A stretch of 37,471 bases of DNA from Candidatus Binataceae bacterium (lineage in GTDB: Bacteria > Desulfobacterota > Binatia > Binatales > Binataceae): positions 1 to 37,471 of the forward strand of contig JASHPB010000019.1 of NCBI GenBank assembly GCA_030038355.1, in the 5' to 3' direction. The notes beneath the pieces were generated by a model. It was not told the origin of the DNA. It did no database searches and saw only the letters and a program-made list of their open reading frames with translations. Shown piece by piece: positions 2,218 to 8,851 of the stretch; within the stretch, counting starts at the first letter, position 1, and the number at the start of each line of letters is the position of its first letter. A program made the position numbers and the translations under genes.

Positions 2218-2291
2218 TGCCAGACCTGATATGATGTGCAAGCCGATGATTTTGTCGGATTTCCGATCGAGCACACCTACATGATCGACTC

Positions 2292-2338
2292 GTACCAAAC
2301 TAGCAATCTGCGGCCTTCGACCGCTCGACCAGCTCTCC
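2292..2338 (-). pseudogene. tRNA-Ser(GCU) 5'-half remnant, copy 2
   Basis: The minus strand starts GGAGAGC, continues with a class II D-arm (GGTCGAGCGG, TCGAAGGC) and an anticodon loop TTGCTAG. As in copy 1, the T-arm and 3' acceptor strand are missing, and the anticodon stem and acceptor have further substitutions (GGAGAGC for GGAGAGG). It is a more decayed copy of the same tRNA half. Confidence 0.65.
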
Positions 2339-2405
2339 ACTCGGACTAGGGATTGTTAAACATCGGTCGCCTCGCGCAAGACGGCTTCCGCGCGCCAGCC
2401 CCGTT
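2293..2405. repeat. Long degenerate direct repeat, copy 2
   Basis: Partner of the repeat at 281-400: same order of tRNA half, GATTGTTAAACATCG block and GC-rich flank, with small gaps and about 25 percent substitutions. Confidence 0.7.
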
Positions 2406-2482
2406 GCCCCTCGAAGTGGCGGTTTCGTATCCTTCAGGCTTCTATTTTACCGCAATCGAGAGACGCGGCGGAAGGAGGTGCA

Positions 2483-2735
2483 ATGCCGGAGGACAAGTTC
2501 GTTCACCTCAACGGTCTGCGGATGCACTTCCGCGACTTCGGCGGTGAAGGTAAACCCATCGCGCTCTTCCTCCATGGCCTCACCGGCAACAGATACTCCT
2601 TCGATCACATCGCGCCGCTGATTGCTGACATGCACCGCGTGATGGCCCTCGATTTCCGCGGCCACGGCGACCGCGACTGGCATCCCGCGGCTGACTACGC
2701 GTTTTCGCGCCACGTGAGCGATAGAATCTCCCTCC
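2483..2735 (+). pseudogene. Alpha/beta hydrolase, N-terminal fragment
   Basis: The ATG follows a near-perfect Shine-Dalgarno (GGAAGGAGGTG). About 80 residues read as the start of an alpha/beta hydrolase: a beta-hairpin, the oxyanion segment LFLHGLTG (about residues 28-35) and DFRGHGDRDW (about 57-66). Near base 2720-2735 the similarity stops and the frame runs into the antisense of the neighbouring NmrA-like gene, ending at 2863. The nucleophile elbow, lid, acid and catalytic His are all absent, so no enzyme can be made. The strong ribosome binding site shows it was once a real, well-expressed gene. Confidence 0.75.
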
Positions 2736-2992
2736 TCGCTACGCTGGCTCTGAAGAAGGTGCTGGGCGGCTCGAAAAACCTGTTCAACCTTGTCCCTTAT
2801 CTTCAAATGTGGGCGAGTTGGCGAGATCGATCATCACCTGCGCGCCGGCCATGGACTCCTTGAGCCCTCGCCGCTGCTGCTGTTGACCCCACTTTTGGGC
2901 GAAGCCGCCACGACTTCCTGGCCGCGCTGACGCAGAATAGCTACGGTTTTCGAGCCGATGAGACCGGTTCCGCCGATGACGGCGATTTTCAT
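2725..2992 (-). pseudogene. NmrA-like NAD(P)-binding (atypical SDR) protein, broken fragment
   Basis: From the ATG at 2992 the minus strand encodes MKIAVIGGTGLIGSK, the GGTGxIG dinucleotide-binding loop of atypical SDR/NmrA proteins, followed by a typical family stretch up to about residue 45 (EVVAASPKSGVN). One frame change near the GEG segment is needed to continue with AGAQVMIDLANSPTFED, and another to reach FFE. Similarity ends where the sequence enters the antisense of the truncated hydrolase at about 2725. Two frame changes and the missing C-terminal two thirds make it a pseudogene. Confidence 0.7.
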
Positions 2993-3198
2993 GATCTAGC
3001 CCCTGCTGATGATTGGAGAGCCACTCAACTAGATCTTACGCGCCCCGCATTAGACGCAACAACGAGACCTTTTTCGCGCCCGCAGGGATTGCCATCGCGC
3101 CGTGTTACGACCCTTAGGTTCAGTCACCTGCGCGACAGATGTGCGTTGCGCCAACTCTGCAGCGTGCTTAGCCTTTCTCGTCAAGGGGAGTTCACTTC
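2993..3198. other. Intergenic region upstream of the methyltransferase
   Basis: About 200 bases carrying the start regions of the divergent NmrA remnant and the methyltransferase gene. I see no distinct operator or terminator. Confidence 0.4.
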
Positions 3199-3888
3199 AT
3201 GGACAACTTCAATCGCGTCGAAGCTGAAGCCTGGGATCCATTCGCCGGCGTGGCGCCAGATCGCGAAGCGGCCCTCAGCCAGTATCGCGACCGCGCGCCG
3301 ATTTACGACCTCGAACTTCGCATCCTCGAGCCCATTCGCCGACGGGCGATTAATCGCCTGTGGCTGCGCCGCGGTTCGACCGTGATCGATGTCGCCTGCG
3401 GCACCGGCCTCAGCTTCGCTCGACTCCGCAAGCAGGTCGGACCCAAGGGCCACGTGATCGGAGTCGATCAGAGCGATGAGATGCTGGCGCGAGCGCGCGA
3501 GCGCGTCGAGCTGAACGGCTGGACAAATTTCACCCTGGTCCAGTCGCCGATCGAGCTTGCGGAAATCGGCGCGTCTGGCGACGCTGCGCTCTTTCACTTC
3601 ACCCACGACGTGATGCGCACGTGGGAAGCACTCCGCAAGGTGATGCGGAGCCTTCGCCCAGGCGCGCGCGTCGTCGCCACCGGACTCAAGTGGGCGCCGT
3701 CATGGGCGCTGCCTGTGAACCTCGCGGTCTTCTTCGCTGCGATGCGCTCGGTCAGCACTTTCGAGGGTCTCGCGCGGCCGTGGAGCCTTCTGGAGCCCCT
3801 GCTAGACGATTTCAGGATCGAGGAGCGGCAGGCTGGAAGCGTCTATATCGCGAGCGGCCGGGTCGAGCGGGTCGCGCTCGATTCGTGA
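3199..3888 (+). CDS. Class I SAM-dependent methyltransferase
   Basis: A 229-residue cytosolic protein of the UbiE/Methyltransf_11/25 type. Motif I is VIDVACGTG at residues 62-70, the acidic ribose-binding residue is Asp90 in GVDQSDEM, and a later strand carries the ALFHFTHDVMRT segment in the motif II position. Length fits small-molecule methyltransferases. The ATG follows AAGGGGAG at a good distance; the upstream frame lacks conserved residues. It stands alone, downstream of the pseudogene pair and convergent with the XRE regulator, so context does not reveal the substrate (quinone, lipid, phenol or arsenite are all possible for this fold). Confidence 0.8.
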   Translation: MDNFNRVEAEAWDPFAGVAPDREAALSQYRDRAPIYDLELRILEPIRRRAINRLWLRRGSTVIDVACGTGLSFARLRKQVGPKGHVIGVDQSDEMLARARERVELNGWTNFTLVQSPIELAEIGASGDAALFHFTHDVMRTWEALRKVMRSLRPGARVVATGLKWAPSWALPVNLAVFFAAMRSVSTFEGLARPWSLLEPLLDDFRIEERQAGSVYIASGRVERVALDS

Positions 3889-4489: not shown

Positions 4490-4658
4490 CGGCAGGCGAT
4501 CCCGAACACTCTCGATAGCGGAGCTTTTACGCCGTCCGCCGTTGAATTCGCGTCAATGCCAAAATCGTAATTCACGCGCCGAGGCGCTTTGCAAATCGCG
4601 CCCAAATCATGGCAACAGTGTTCGGCGCGCCGATCGCGCCGCGAACATACCGAGCGGT

Positions 4659-4688
4659 TTGTTGCAGCCGCTTCGATTGGCGTAGATT
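4659..4688 (+). promoter_or_regulatory. Putative sigma-70 promoter for the 4HBD-like gene
   Basis: TTGTTG (4659-4664) and TAGATT (4683-4688) are separated by 18 bases and lie about 35 bases upstream of the start codon. The match to consensus is moderate. Confidence 0.35.
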
Positions 4689-4722
4689 CGGGCCTCAGCG
4701 CCGCCGAGGAGAAGAAGCGCAT

Positions 4723-6111
4723 ATGATGACCGGAGAGCAATACAAGAAATCAATCAACGACGGACGCGAAACCTTTTTTGACGGCGAGCGCGTACGCGAC
4801 CTTGCGACGCATCCGCTGCTCGGTGCCTGTATTGGCAGGATCGCGGCCGGCTACGACCGCTGGTACAAGCCCGGCGCCGACGCCGTCAGCGATCTGATGA
4901 CTATCCCCGGTTCGGCCAAGGAATTGAAAGATCGAATCCCGTTGCTGCATTCCTCCGATATCGTCGCCAACGTAACTTACCAATCGATCATGACACTGAC
5001 GACTGCGGCCTCGCGTATAGCGCCCGCGCTGCCCGAGTACGCCGAGCGCATTCGTAACTACGTAAGGGGCGCGCAGCGACGCGACATCCGAATCGTCGAG
5101 TGCATCACGGACGCCAAGGGTGATCGAAGCCGGCCGCCCGGCAAGCAGGACGATCCCGACGCCTACACCCACGTCGTTGATCGACGCGCTGACGGCGTGG
5201 TTATTCGCGGCGCTAAGCTGCACATCACCGGCGCCTCGATGAGCCACGAGCTGATGGTGATCCCGACCAAGGCGATGAAGCCGGGCGAGGAATCCTACGC
5301 GATCGGATGCGCCGTGCCGGTGAACTCTCCGGGGGTGAAGATCGTGGATACGACCTTCGCGCCGCGTCATCACGACACGCGCGATTTTCCGGTCGCATCG
5401 GCGATTCATATGCCCGAAGGCTTCGTCATCTTCGACGAGGTGTTCGTGCCCAAAGAAAGAATCTTCCTCGACGGCGAAGTGGCCCACGCCGCGGTCTTCG
5501 CGCATTCGCTCGGGCTTTGGGAGCGCCTCGGTGGACTCTCGGGCATGGCAGAGGAAGGCGACCAGTTGGTGGGATTCGCGCAGCTAATCGCCGAGGCCAA
5601 CGGCCTCGCCAAGGAATCGCACATCAAGGAAAAAATCTCCGAGATGCTGATTCACGCGACGCTCGTTCACGCCGCCCTGGAAGCGGCAATCGCGAATTGC
5701 ACGATAAGCCAAGAGGGCGCTGCGTTTCCCGACGAGCTTTACACCAACGCCGGCAAGTATCACGCGGCGGCGAACTACAACGCGATGGTGCGGCATCTGC
5801 ATGACATTGCGGGCGGCTCGGTGCTCACCGCCCCCTCGGTCGCGGATTTCGAAAACGAGGTGACAGGGCCGCTGGTGCGCAAGTACATGAGCACGATGAC
5901 GGGCGTTGATGGCGAGTATCGTGCGAAGCTGTTCCACGCCATTCGTGATCTCACGGCCGATGCCTACGGCGGATGGAAGGCGGTTACGAACGTGCAGGCT
6001 GGTGGCGGACTTTACGCGCAGCGTATCGTGACCCGCAAGTACTACGATTTGAACGGCGCCAAGCGAAAAGCGCTACATCTCGCCGGTATCAAGGACGAGA
6101 AAAGCAACTAA
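4723..6111 (+). CDS. 4-hydroxybutyryl-CoA dehydratase/HpaB-superfamily flavoprotein lacking Fe-S ligands
   Basis: A 462-residue protein of the acyl-CoA-dehydrogenase-like HpaB/AbfD superfamily. The central part follows the dehydratase pattern closely: ITDAKGDRSRPP (128-139), ADGVVIRGAKLHITGA (156-171), IFDEVFVPKERIFLDGE (236-252) and DIAGGSVLTAPS (361-372). Characterised 4-hydroxybutyryl-CoA dehydratase binds a [4Fe-4S] cluster with three Cys and one His. Here there is no Cys between residues 36 and 127, and the H-x6-C pair appears replaced by Leu265 and Leu272, judged by alignment from memory. A flavin-dependent hydroxylase, isomerase or unusual dehydrogenase is therefore likelier than a dehydratase. 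Two adjacent ATGs (4723, 4726) follow a GAGGAG; the longer upstream frame is not conserved-looking. No flavin reductase partner is nearby. Confidence 0.8.
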   Translation: MMTGEQYKKSINDGRETFFDGERVRDLATHPLLGACIGRIAAGYDRWYKPGADAVSDLMTIPGSAKELKDRIPLLHSSDIVANVTYQSIMTLTTAASRIAPALPEYAERIRNYVRGAQRRDIRIVECITDAKGDRSRPPGKQDDPDAYTHVVDRRADGVVIRGAKLHITGASMSHELMVIPTKAMKPGEESYAIGCAVPVNSPGVKIVDTTFAPRHHDTRDFPVASAIHMPEGFVIFDEVFVPKERIFLDGEVAHAAVFAHSLGLWERLGGLSGMAEEGDQLVGFAQLIAEANGLAKESHIKEKISEMLIHATLVHAALEAAIANCTISQEGAAFPDELYTNAGKYHAAANYNAMVRHLHDIAGGSVLTAPSVADFENEVTGPLVRKYMSTMTGVDGEYRAKLFHAIRDLTADAYGGWKAVTNVQAGGGLYAQRIVTRKYYDLNGAKRKALHLAGIKDEKSN

Positions 6112-6222
6112 AGCTGCCAGGCTCTACAGTCGAACGGGGGCGATGCTCGCGGCCGTATTGCCGCCACTTTTCGTTGCGTGACTTTTGGTTCGTTCCGGCG
6201 TTCTGACAGTTGGAGGCTGAAT

Positions 6223-6810
6223 GTGGCCGGAGCGTCGGCATTGAAACGCCGCGGTAAGGAGCGCACGCGTCTGGATACCGCGGCGGACACGATCGAGCGC
6301 AGGCAGATCGAAGCCGCGCAACGCGATCCCGCTTGCTTCGCCGAGCTCTACGAGGCCAACTTCGAGCGCGTCTACGCATTTATCCTGCGACGCGTTGGCG
6401 ATCGCGACCAGGCGCAGGACCTGACCGCCGATGTGTTTCACAAGGCGATCGAGAGCATCGAGCGTTTCGAATGGCGGAGCGTACCGTTCGTCGTGTGGCT
6501 CTTTAAGATTGCGGCCAACGCCATCGCCGATCGCGGCCGCGGCTTCAAGCGGCTCGAAAAGCTGAAACGAAGCATTGTCGAGCTGGAGCATTCCAGAACG
6601 GAAGATCTCGCGGAGGCTGAATATCGCGCGCGGCTTTTCAAGCTGGTGGAAGAACTGCCTGCCGATCAACGCCGCGTCGTCACAATGAGATTCGCCAAGG
6701 AGCAATCAACGGCCGAGATCGCCAAGGCGATCGGACGGAGCGAGGGCGCCGTAAAACAGCTCCAGTTTCGCGGGCTGCAGGCGCTCAGAGCAATGGTGGG
6801 CGAGCGATGA
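6223..6810 (+). CDS. ECF-type sigma factor (sigma-70 family)
   Basis: A 195-residue sigma factor with only regions 2 and 4. Region 2 (about 30-100) contains ELYEANFERVYAFILRR, the DQAQDLTADVF core-binding segment and the VPFVVWLFKIAANAIAD helix. Region 4 (about 140-192) contains ELPADQRRVVTMRF and the helix-turn-helix TAEIAKAIGRSEGAVKQ. I place the start at GTG 6223, six bases after GGAGG; an upstream ATG in frame lacks a ribosome site. The stop overlaps the start of the triple-VOC gene (ATGA), so the two are translationally coupled. ECF factors are usually controlled by the product of the gene directly downstream. Confidence 0.85.
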   Translation: MAGASALKRRGKERTRLDTAADTIERRQIEAAQRDPACFAELYEANFERVYAFILRRVGDRDQAQDLTADVFHKAIESIERFEWRSVPFVVWLFKIAANAIADRGRGFKRLEKLKRSIVELEHSRTEDLAEAEYRARLFKLVEELPADQRRVVTMRFAKEQSTAEIAKAIGRSEGAVKQLQFRGLQALRAMVGER

Positions 6811-8345
6811 AGCGCGCGCTACCAAAACGCAGGCCGCTGCGCGTTGCCGACGAGCTCGAGCGCGCGGTGCAGACGCTGATCGATGATCGCAAAGCGGCGC
6901 CACGCGTTCAGTCGAAGCTCGCGCCGATTCTGCGCGTCGCCGCCGATCTGCGCGGGATGCCGGACGCTGATTTCAAGGCGCGCCTGAAGCTTGAACTGAT
7001 CGGCGGTGCAAGGCAGTCCCCAACGCGCCGCCAAAGGAGCCGCCGCACGCAGCCGGCCCGAGCGCAGGAACGCCTGGAGCCGAGCCTCGCTCCGAGCGCG
7101 GCACCCGCGCCTCCCTACGTGCGTGAGGGATTTCACAGCATCACGCCTTACATTGCGGTCGACGGCGCTTCGAAGATGATCGATTTCGTGAAGCGCGCTT
7201 TCGGCGCCCAGGAGACGCTGCGCGTGAACACGGACGACGGCCGCATCGGGCACGCCGAGGTGCGAATCGAAGGTTCTATGCTCGAGCTTGGCGACTCTTC
7301 CGGCGGCAGTCAGCCGAATCCGACCGCGCTCTGGGTTTTCGTGCCCGATGCCGATGCCGCCTACGCACGCGCGATCGAGGCGGGCGCAACCTCGATTCAT
7401 GAGCCGGTTGACCAGGACTACGGCGATCGCGAAGGCAGCGTGAAGGATCCGTTTGGCAATCATTGGTATATCGGAACGCATCGCGCCGAGGCCGAGCCGC
7501 TGCCGCCAGAGCTTCGCAGCGTGACGACGTACATGCATCCGGTTGGCGCGCCCGGCGTGATCAATTTCATGAAGAAGGCTTTCAACGCCGAAGAAGTGGA
7601 GCGTGCGCAAGATGACTCCGGCACGGTCCATCACGCGAAGATCAGGATTGGTGACTCGATAATCGCGATCGGCGAGGCGCACGGTCCGTATCATCCGATG
7701 CCGCCGGTTCTTCATCTTTATGTTCCGGAGGCCGATCGCACCTATCAGCGGGCGCTCGCCGCCGGCGCCGTGTCGCTGAGCGAGCCCGCGGATCTACCCT
7801 ACGGCGAGCGCTGCGGCGCAGTGCGCGATCCGTTCGGCAACACCTGGTATATCGCGACGCGGCTGGATGCCCTGCCGCAGAAGGCCGCGACGCCTGAGGC
7901 TCCGCCCCGGCACGAGCGCCCCGGCAACATCATGCCCTTCATGTATATCGAGGGCGTCGGGCGCGCGTTCGATTTCTATCGCAAGGTGTTTGGCGCGCGC
8001 GAAGTGCATCGCGTAGAGGAAGGCGGCAGGCCGAGCCACGTCCAGATGGCGATCGGCCAGACTAATGTGATGCTAAGTGATCCGACGATGGAACACGCGG
8101 CGAAATCTCCCGCCGCGGCCTTCGTCGCGACGCCGCATTCGCTGGGCGGCTCGCCGCTGCATCTCTACGTGTATGTTGAGGATGCCGACGCAGCATATGA
8201 ACGCGCGCTTGAAGAAGGATCAAAAGTCGTCGATCCGATGCAAGACAAAGAGTGGGGCGATCACTGCGGCGGCGTGCAGGATCCCTTCGGCCACGTCTGG
8301 TACATCGCGACGCCAATCAAAGACCGCCCATCAGCCTCACGGTGA
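6807..8345 (+). CDS. Triple VOC/PhnB-like protein with N-terminal sigma-partner segment
   Basis: A 512-residue protein. Residues 10-65 form a helical, charged segment (AVQTLIDDRKAAPR, LAPILRVAADLRGMP, FKARLKLEL) followed by an Arg/Pro-rich linker. Three VOC (glyoxalase/PhnB-like) units follow at about 110-230, 235-350 and 370-505. Each opens with a TPYI, TYMH or MPFMYI strand, continues with a helix ending in FGA or FNA, and closes with a D-P-F-G-N/H-x-WYI signature (KDPFGNHWYIGT, RDPFGNTWYIAT, QDPFGHVWYIAT). The start overlaps the sigma factor stop. VOC domains bind metals and small ligands, so ligand control of the sigma factor is a reasonable inference. Its 3' end overlaps the convergent cupin gene by 9 bases. 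No membrane segment is visible. Confidence 0.8.
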   Translation: MKRALPKRRPLRVADELERAVQTLIDDRKAAPRVQSKLAPILRVAADLRGMPDADFKARLKLELIGGARQSPTRRQRSRRTQPARAQERLEPSLAPSAAPAPPYVREGFHSITPYIAVDGASKMIDFVKRAFGAQETLRVNTDDGRIGHAEVRIEGSMLELGDSSGGSQPNPTALWVFVPDADAAYARAIEAGATSIHEPVDQDYGDREGSVKDPFGNHWYIGTHRAEAEPLPPELRSVTTYMHPVGAPGVINFMKKAFNAEEVERAQDDSGTVHHAKIRIGDSIIAIGEAHGPYHPMPPVLHLYVPEADRTYQRALAAGAVSLSEPADLPYGERCGAVRDPFGNTWYIATRLDALPQKAATPEAPPRHERPGNIMPFMYIEGVGRAFDFYRKVFGAREVHRVEEGGRPSHVQMAIGQTNVMLSDPTMEHAAKSPAAAFVATPHSLGGSPLHLYVYVEDADAAYERALEEGSKVVDPMQDKEWGDHCGGVQDPFGHVWYIATPIKDRPSASR

Positions 8346-8765
8346 CGGCTTGGCCTGAAGCATCGTCGTGAGCGGCACGCCGTGCGGCGCGATCATGAAG
8401 ACCAGCAGACGCGCCGGTTCGGTGGTGCTCGCGTTCTTCGATACCATGTGATGCTCGTGCGGCTTCTCGGCCCACATCTCGCCGACTTTGTAAGTCACCG
8501 GCTCATGATCATCGAGTTGTGATACGACTGCTCCCTCGAGGACGTAGGCATAGGTGTAGCCCGGATGCTCATGCGGGGGAGTCGAACCTCCCGGCGGGTA
8601 ATCGACCGTTATCACCGTGACATCGGTGCCGGGCTGACTTGCCAGCGGCTGGCTCAGCACCTGATGAAGAACGCCTGCCGATGCGGGCGGCGCGGCATGG
8701 AGAATAGTGCGGCTCGCGACGAGTAAAGCGGTGGCGATAAGCACCGCGATGGAACTTTTCCTCAT
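8337..8765 (-). CDS. Secreted cupin-domain protein
   Basis: A 142-residue protein with a Sec signal peptide: MRKSSIAVLIATALLVASR, with likely cleavage after HAA or nearby. A single cupin follows: motif 1 PHEHPGYTYAYVLEG with two His and a Gly, and motif 2 reading PHEHHMVSKN. It probably binds one divalent metal in the periplasm; enzymatic or sensory role unknown. I chose the second Met because it starts the signal peptide; the 12 residues before it are Ser/Arg-rich. It is divergent from the HAD gene and convergent with the VOC gene. Confidence 0.75.
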   Translation of the reverse strand: MRKSSIAVLIATALLVASRTILHAAPPASAGVLHQVLSQPLASQPGTDVTVITVDYPPGGSTPPHEHPGYTYAYVLEGAVVSQLDDHEPVTYKVGEMWAEKPHEHHMVSKNASTTEPARLLVFMIAPHGVPLTTMLQAKPSP

Positions 8766-8851
8766 GGAGCTTCGTCTAGTCTGTGGCGAACTCAATGACA
8801 ACCTCGGCAGGCGCGTTTAGAAATCTCGCTCGAGTCAGATACAGTGCCTGC

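Follow-up and report, generated by a model that had tools for sequence, protein, structure and literature searches.

A BldN-like ECF sigma factor and its overlapping partner in Binatota and Acidobacteria: a putative soluble, zinc-free anti-sigma with VOC or cupin domains

Where the signal of an anti-sigma factor is known, the protein is in most cases either membrane-bound or a zinc or redox sensor. In class III anti-sigmas, of which RsbN is the example, three zinc-free helices contact sigma4 and sigma2. A cytoplasmic precedent is ChrR, the anti-sigma of RpoE (ECF11) in Rhodobacter sphaeroides, in which an N-terminal sigma-binding domain is joined by a flexible linker to a C-terminal, metal-binding cupin that is needed for the response to the signal, and whose operon is a target of the sigma factor (PMC6852236). 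A search of the literature, with the main ECF classification outside its reach, returned no ECF sigma factor tied to a VOC/glyoxalase anti-sigma; a listing as an unnamed ECF group is possible. Here we describe such a candidate pair, encoded by two overlapping genes in a stretch of 37,471 nucleotides from a Binatota genome of Candidatus Binataceae type (the window, meaning the whole of the DNA analysed). The pair comprises the following features:

6177..6206, + strand: putative autoregulatory ECF promoter; -35 CGTGAC (6177-6182), 16-nt spacer, -10 CGTTCTGA (6199-6206)
6223..6810, + strand: BldN-like ECF sigma factor, 195 aa; regions 2 and 4; likely GTG start
6807..8345, + strand: partner, a putative soluble anti-sigma of 512 aa with an N-terminal domain (NTD) and three VOC domains; ATGA overlap with the sigma stop codon
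6807..7004, + strand: NTD, aa 1-66; three-helix, free of Cys and His (alignments and AlphaFold2)
7005..7118, + strand: disordered linker, about aa 67-104; basic, Pro/Ala-rich; pLDDT <50 at residues 66-104
7134..7484, + strand: VOC domain 1, aa 110-226; PF00903; AlphaFold2 strand/helix order
7515..7865, + strand: VOC domain 2, aa 237-353; PF00903; AlphaFold2
7935..8318, + strand: VOC domain 3, aa 377-504; PF00903; the most conserved of the VOC domains

Pfam matches (Sigma70_r2, 8e-13; Sigma70_r4_2, 1e-13) and the coordinates agree with the initial annotation of a sigma factor with regions 2 and 4 that overlaps a 512-residue gene by ATGA. The sigma chain stops right behind region 4 and has no C-terminal extension. 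Its top PDB chain is BldN (6dxo_A, 1e-20) and its top NCBIfam model is the BldN family, TIGR02952 (7e-37); since the score of 127 bits lies below the curated cut-off of 206, we call the protein BldN-like and not a BldN equivalog. The frame is already open from GTG 6178, a start that we rejected because the codon forms part of the -35 element upstream of the sigma gene. This position, together with a Shine-Dalgarno GGAGG at 6212-6216, 5' of GTG 6223, makes GTG 6223 most likely the true start.

In the partner, three stretches match Glyoxalase (PF00903) and end in DPFGNHWYI, DPFGNTWYI and DPFGHVWYI. An AlphaFold2 model built with eight homologues has helices at residues 12-26, 36-47 and 53-65. 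Residues 66-104 are disordered in it, and it contains three complete VOC folds, which Foldseek confirmed; the paired beta-alpha-beta-beta-beta modules of the VOC superfamily are present. The three VOC units read from the sequence, each with its own D-P-F-G-N/H-x-WYI ending, are thereby borne out. By eye, the usual first His among the metal ligands of catalytic VOC members is absent from strand 1 of each domain. A transmembrane segment is likewise absent (maximum 19-residue Kyte-Doolittle value 0.74), residues 1-108 contain neither Cys nor His, and the only Cys residues of the whole partner are at 336 and 487; scan and residue count both agree with the earlier view that the protein has no membrane segment and no His/Cys zinc motif. 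Identities and dN/dS values were taken against L007, the nearest relative of the window. The partner is under purifying selection (dN/dS 0.21; NTD 0.38), as is visible most clearly in VOC3 (95% amino acid identity, dN/dS 0.07), whose nearest solved sequence is TioX (3itw). The linker is 50% identical to that of L007, versus 78-95% for the folded parts, and the sigma gene has a dN/dS of 0.12.

Directly upstream of the operon (4609-6108, + strand) lies a gene for a 4-hydroxyphenylacetate 3-hydroxylase-type flavin monooxygenase (HpaB). What seems to be its homologue precedes the L007 operon as well, and could bear on the ligand. The convergent downstream gene (8337-8801, - strand) encodes a small cupin (Cupin_2; PF12973, the ChrR cupin family, is matched weakly), and a similar gene is apparently found at the same place in L007.

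The initial annotation described the first 60 or so residues of the partner as a helical, charged segment. Alignments and AlphaFold2 indicate that it is a conserved domain of three helices and no disordered linker: Ala, Pro, Phe and Leu at positions 45, 52, 56 and 60, respectively, are invariant in 38 NTD sequences, across which no Cys or His is conserved and the Hx3Cx2C zinc motif of class I anti-sigmas is missing. Searches of the ~60-aa NTD against Pfam, NCBIfam and the PDB, singly and as a profile, gave no meaningful match; the profile retrieved no 6dxo chain (RsbN/BldN) at E values up to 10, which leaves room for remote homology. A Foldseek search with the NTD modelled in isolation (pLDDT 63) gave no match at E <5, and all TM-scores were low. 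DUF5667 (PF18915) was considered as the identity of the NTD and rejected, as its matches in the window's taxonomic class lie away from sigma factors and bear no resemblance to the NTD. The suggestion of an anti-sigma N-terminus is partly supported: linkage to a sigma gene recurs, as described below, and profile searches detect no homology to known anti-sigmas. Because the label then derives from context, the partner is fairly named a putative soluble anti-sigma, of a type not yet described; filing it under class I or class III would be premature.

An initial search with the partner protein yielded seven loci (L007-L013), Binatota-like and acidobacterial, that match over the full length including the NTD; a BldN-like sigma gene overlaps upstream in 7/7. 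Searches with the NTD alone, using a profile built without any sigma information, were positive in 11/148 genomes of the window's class, 8/396 genomes of the acidobacterial phylum and 18/162 genomes of one acidobacterial class, and none of the plasmids searched carried an NTD. Altogether 40 distinct NTD loci were found, all in Binatota and Acidobacteria, and a BldN-like sigma gene lies directly upstream on the same strand at 38 of them, counting a broken sigma frame at L062 and at L141 and a sigma gene cut by the contig end in C127. Sigma and partner genes overlap mostly by 8 nt (ATGGCTAA) or 4 nt (ATGA). Both loci that lack the sigma gene (L089; L143/L148) also lack NTD helix 1; at L148 (G775:C355, about 2266-3220) an intact sigma-type promoter leads straight into the truncated NTD-VOC gene. 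By contrast, a BldN-like sigma gene is nearby in 0/37 VOC-only relatives without an NTD (Fisher test without correction for kinship, p about 6e-20). NTD-bearing genes are thus not located away from sigma factors, and the refuting condition named in the initial annotation does not hold; linkage at 38/40 loci together with purifying selection argues that the gene pair is more than chance. A second association of sigma and VOC genes, independent of the first, is seen in two VOC-only relatives (L025:2044-3327 and L038:2032-3315, minus), which adjoin an ECF42-type sigma gene (DUF6596, TPR).

What follows the NTD varies. The cargo comprises VOC domains at 33 of the 40 loci (1 to 4+ copies: two in most Acidobacteria, three in the window, one or four and more elsewhere) and cupins at seven. 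One or two cupins stand behind the NTD in C127, from the same genome as the window, and in L062, L066, L070, L076 and L134; L061 combines two cupins with a VOC domain. The window's genome thus holds both cargo types, on contigs C230 and C127, the latter with a partial BldN-like sigma gene, an NTD with two cupins and then a separate VOC gene (L052:2783-4791, G000:C127, minus strand). On the best topology of the sigma tree, in which several forks are weak, there are at least five switches between cargo types. Recurrence of the architecture in other genomes together with the sigma factor was found; its triple character turned out not to be essential. A domain of 60 residues that one sigma lineage keeps through exchanges of the attached ligand-binding folds is how a sigma-binding regulatory module should look. 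Linkage at 38/40 loci, its absence from all 37 VOC-only relatives and the swapped cargo give strong, if indirect, support to the earlier proposal that the N-terminal segment couples the partner to the sigma factor.

The initial annotation proposed to look for a promoter of the sigma factor upstream of both genes, and a BldN-type site is present at 6177-6206. It scores 18.8 bits, versus 13.3 for the runner-up, and is the best in the whole window, with a matrix made from 35 homologous sites that include the window site itself. The motif CGT(A/G)(A/G)C-N16/17-(A/C/G)GTT occurs upstream of 35/37 testable sigma genes versus 1.1% of shuffles, with the consensus CGTAACCTTTT...AGTTTATA; at one further locus, L131, the site is one base off. 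For the C127 operon the upstream region is off the contig, and the homologous operon in the near relative G294 carries the motif. The published BldN site is CGTAAC-N16-CGTTGA (PMC2375139), so that sigma family and promoter agree independently. The full motif is also found 5' of stand-alone VOC genes in G288 (L096) and G287 (L112). In the window's own genome (G000), the promoter patterns tried retrieved the window site only. Matches within coding frames (L100, L160, L168) and those at L110 and L162 were taken as chance, as pattern-reversed controls also matched sometimes. The full motif also lies shortly upstream of a gene for an AhpC/TSA (Bcp-type) peroxiredoxin (L169, G779:C313:3654-3682), hinting at a possible link to oxidative stress.

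The acidobacterial genes have a further property. An in-frame ATG lies exactly at the NTD-VOC junction in 24/26 acidobacterial fusions (including L009, L083, L106, L131, L133 and L137). A Shine-Dalgarno core precedes this ATG in 23/24 cases, versus 39/219 for other in-frame Met codons, and 24/24 Arg codons among the eight codons ahead of it are AGG/AGA, versus 61/418 elsewhere; kinship inflates these counts. Exclusive choice of AGG/AGA is hard to explain other than by an internal ribosome site, from which we predict that one gene gives a free VOC protein besides the fusion. The junction start is absent from VOC-type Binatota loci, including the window.

We consider it probable (roughly 0.7) that the sigma factor is autoregulated and kept in check by the partner, a soluble anti-sigma without zinc that detects a cytosolic ligand through its VOC or cupin cargo. 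That the NTD binds the sigma factor, that it inhibits it and that a ligand gates the pair is what we infer from the observations above. The BldN-like sigma factor would transcribe its own operon from the CGTRAC-N16-(C/G/A)GTT promoter, and the three-helix, zinc-free NTD would bind and restrain it. Binding of a small cytosolic molecule to the linker-tethered VOC domains would release the sigma factor. The operon of sigma factor and partner would then be transcribed more strongly, as would stand-alone VOC genes in some genomes. The induced VOC proteins may bind or process the compound; since the products would then include a VOC protein that binds the inducer, we propose a titration or homeostatic loop.

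Linkage and modularity reveal coupling and not its sign, and thus would equally suit a partner that is a positive cofactor of the sigma factor (a stabiliser, chaperone or RNA-polymerase tether) switched on by a ligand on its VOC or cupin domains. We regard this as rather unlikely, as ECF sigma factors with a co-transcribed downstream partner are normally under anti-sigma control (PMC8103513), and an autoregulated sigma factor with an activator alone would tend to lock on. The cargo might instead be a pure effector, either a detoxifying enzyme or a protein that sequesters a compound as TioX- or bleomycin-resistance-like proteins do, with the NTD providing product feedback such that excess partner shuts off the sigma factor without ligand gating. 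The same promoter on stand-alone VOC genes, the free VOC product predicted from the acidobacterial ribosome site and the proximity in sequence to TioX all fit; the ChrR precedent and the exchange of VOC for cupin, a ligand-binding fold unrelated to it, speak for sensing, and sensor and effector roles are compatible with each other. A purely effector role is accordingly unlikely in our estimation.

The genes are adjacent in a short operon and the NTD belongs to no known family, as would be the case if the partner were an ordinary co-transcribed VOC protein with an extra N-terminal stretch that serves as a linker or is a side effect of translational coupling. Conservation of the NTD across two phyla as a domain of three helices with invariant residues, its occurrence almost only with a BldN-like sigma factor and its retention while the rest of the protein is swapped make this very improbable. 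Within the favoured reading, that of a sigma factor restrained by a soluble anti-sigma, a more far-reaching version stands at about even odds: the NTD would be an undescribed zinc-free anti-sigma plug to which evolution attached one to four or more VOC or cupin domains, yielding soluble sensors of chemicals that serve a single lineage of BldN-like sigma factors in Binatota and Acidobacteria, and the acidobacterial gene, with a free VOC protein from its internal start, would combine sensor and effector in one reading frame.

The combination of the sigma factor with an NTD-cargo protein in these little-studied soil bacteria points to a new type of chemical sensor in which a single protein serves gene control. 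If this is true, a zinc-free, soluble sigma-binding module with interchangeable VOC or cupin domains would be a natural means of tuning a sigma factor to selected small molecules of the cytosol, and a function would be assigned to a protein region that none of the family libraries searched names. The model also provides a testable proposal on what a set of VOC and cupin proteins of soil bacteria sense, and a modular part for synthetic biology.

Among known systems, TioX and bleomycin-resistance-type VOC proteins share the fold of the cargo and provide the closest solved sequence of VOC3; unlike the partner, they stand alone, without a sigma factor or an NTD. ChrR resembles the cupin-bearing paralogues (C127/L052, L061, L062, L066, L070, L076 and L134) in its architecture of an N-terminal module, in the paralogues a putative sigma-binding one, and a C-terminal cupin. 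However, the ASD of ChrR has four helices and binds zinc (class I), whereas the NTD has three predicted helices and no Cys or His; the sigma factor here is BldN-like, similarity in sequence between NTD and ChrR was not found, and VOC cargo is not described in the literature searched. With RsbN/BldN of Streptomyces (ASD class III) the pair shares a sigma factor closest to BldN (6dxo_A) and a promoter that agrees in -35, spacer and -10 core. RsbN has been reported as three helices without zinc (PMC7406223), as modelled for the NTD, but is membrane-anchored while the partner is soluble, and the NTD matches no 6dxo chain in sequence. Finally, ECF41 and ECF56, with a fused SnoaL-like domain, and ECF42, with a fused DUF6596/TPR domain, likewise tie an ECF sigma factor to a soluble regulatory domain. 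In these groups the extension sits on the sigma chain itself, whereas here the sigma factor is minimal and the module is encoded by a separate, overlapping gene.
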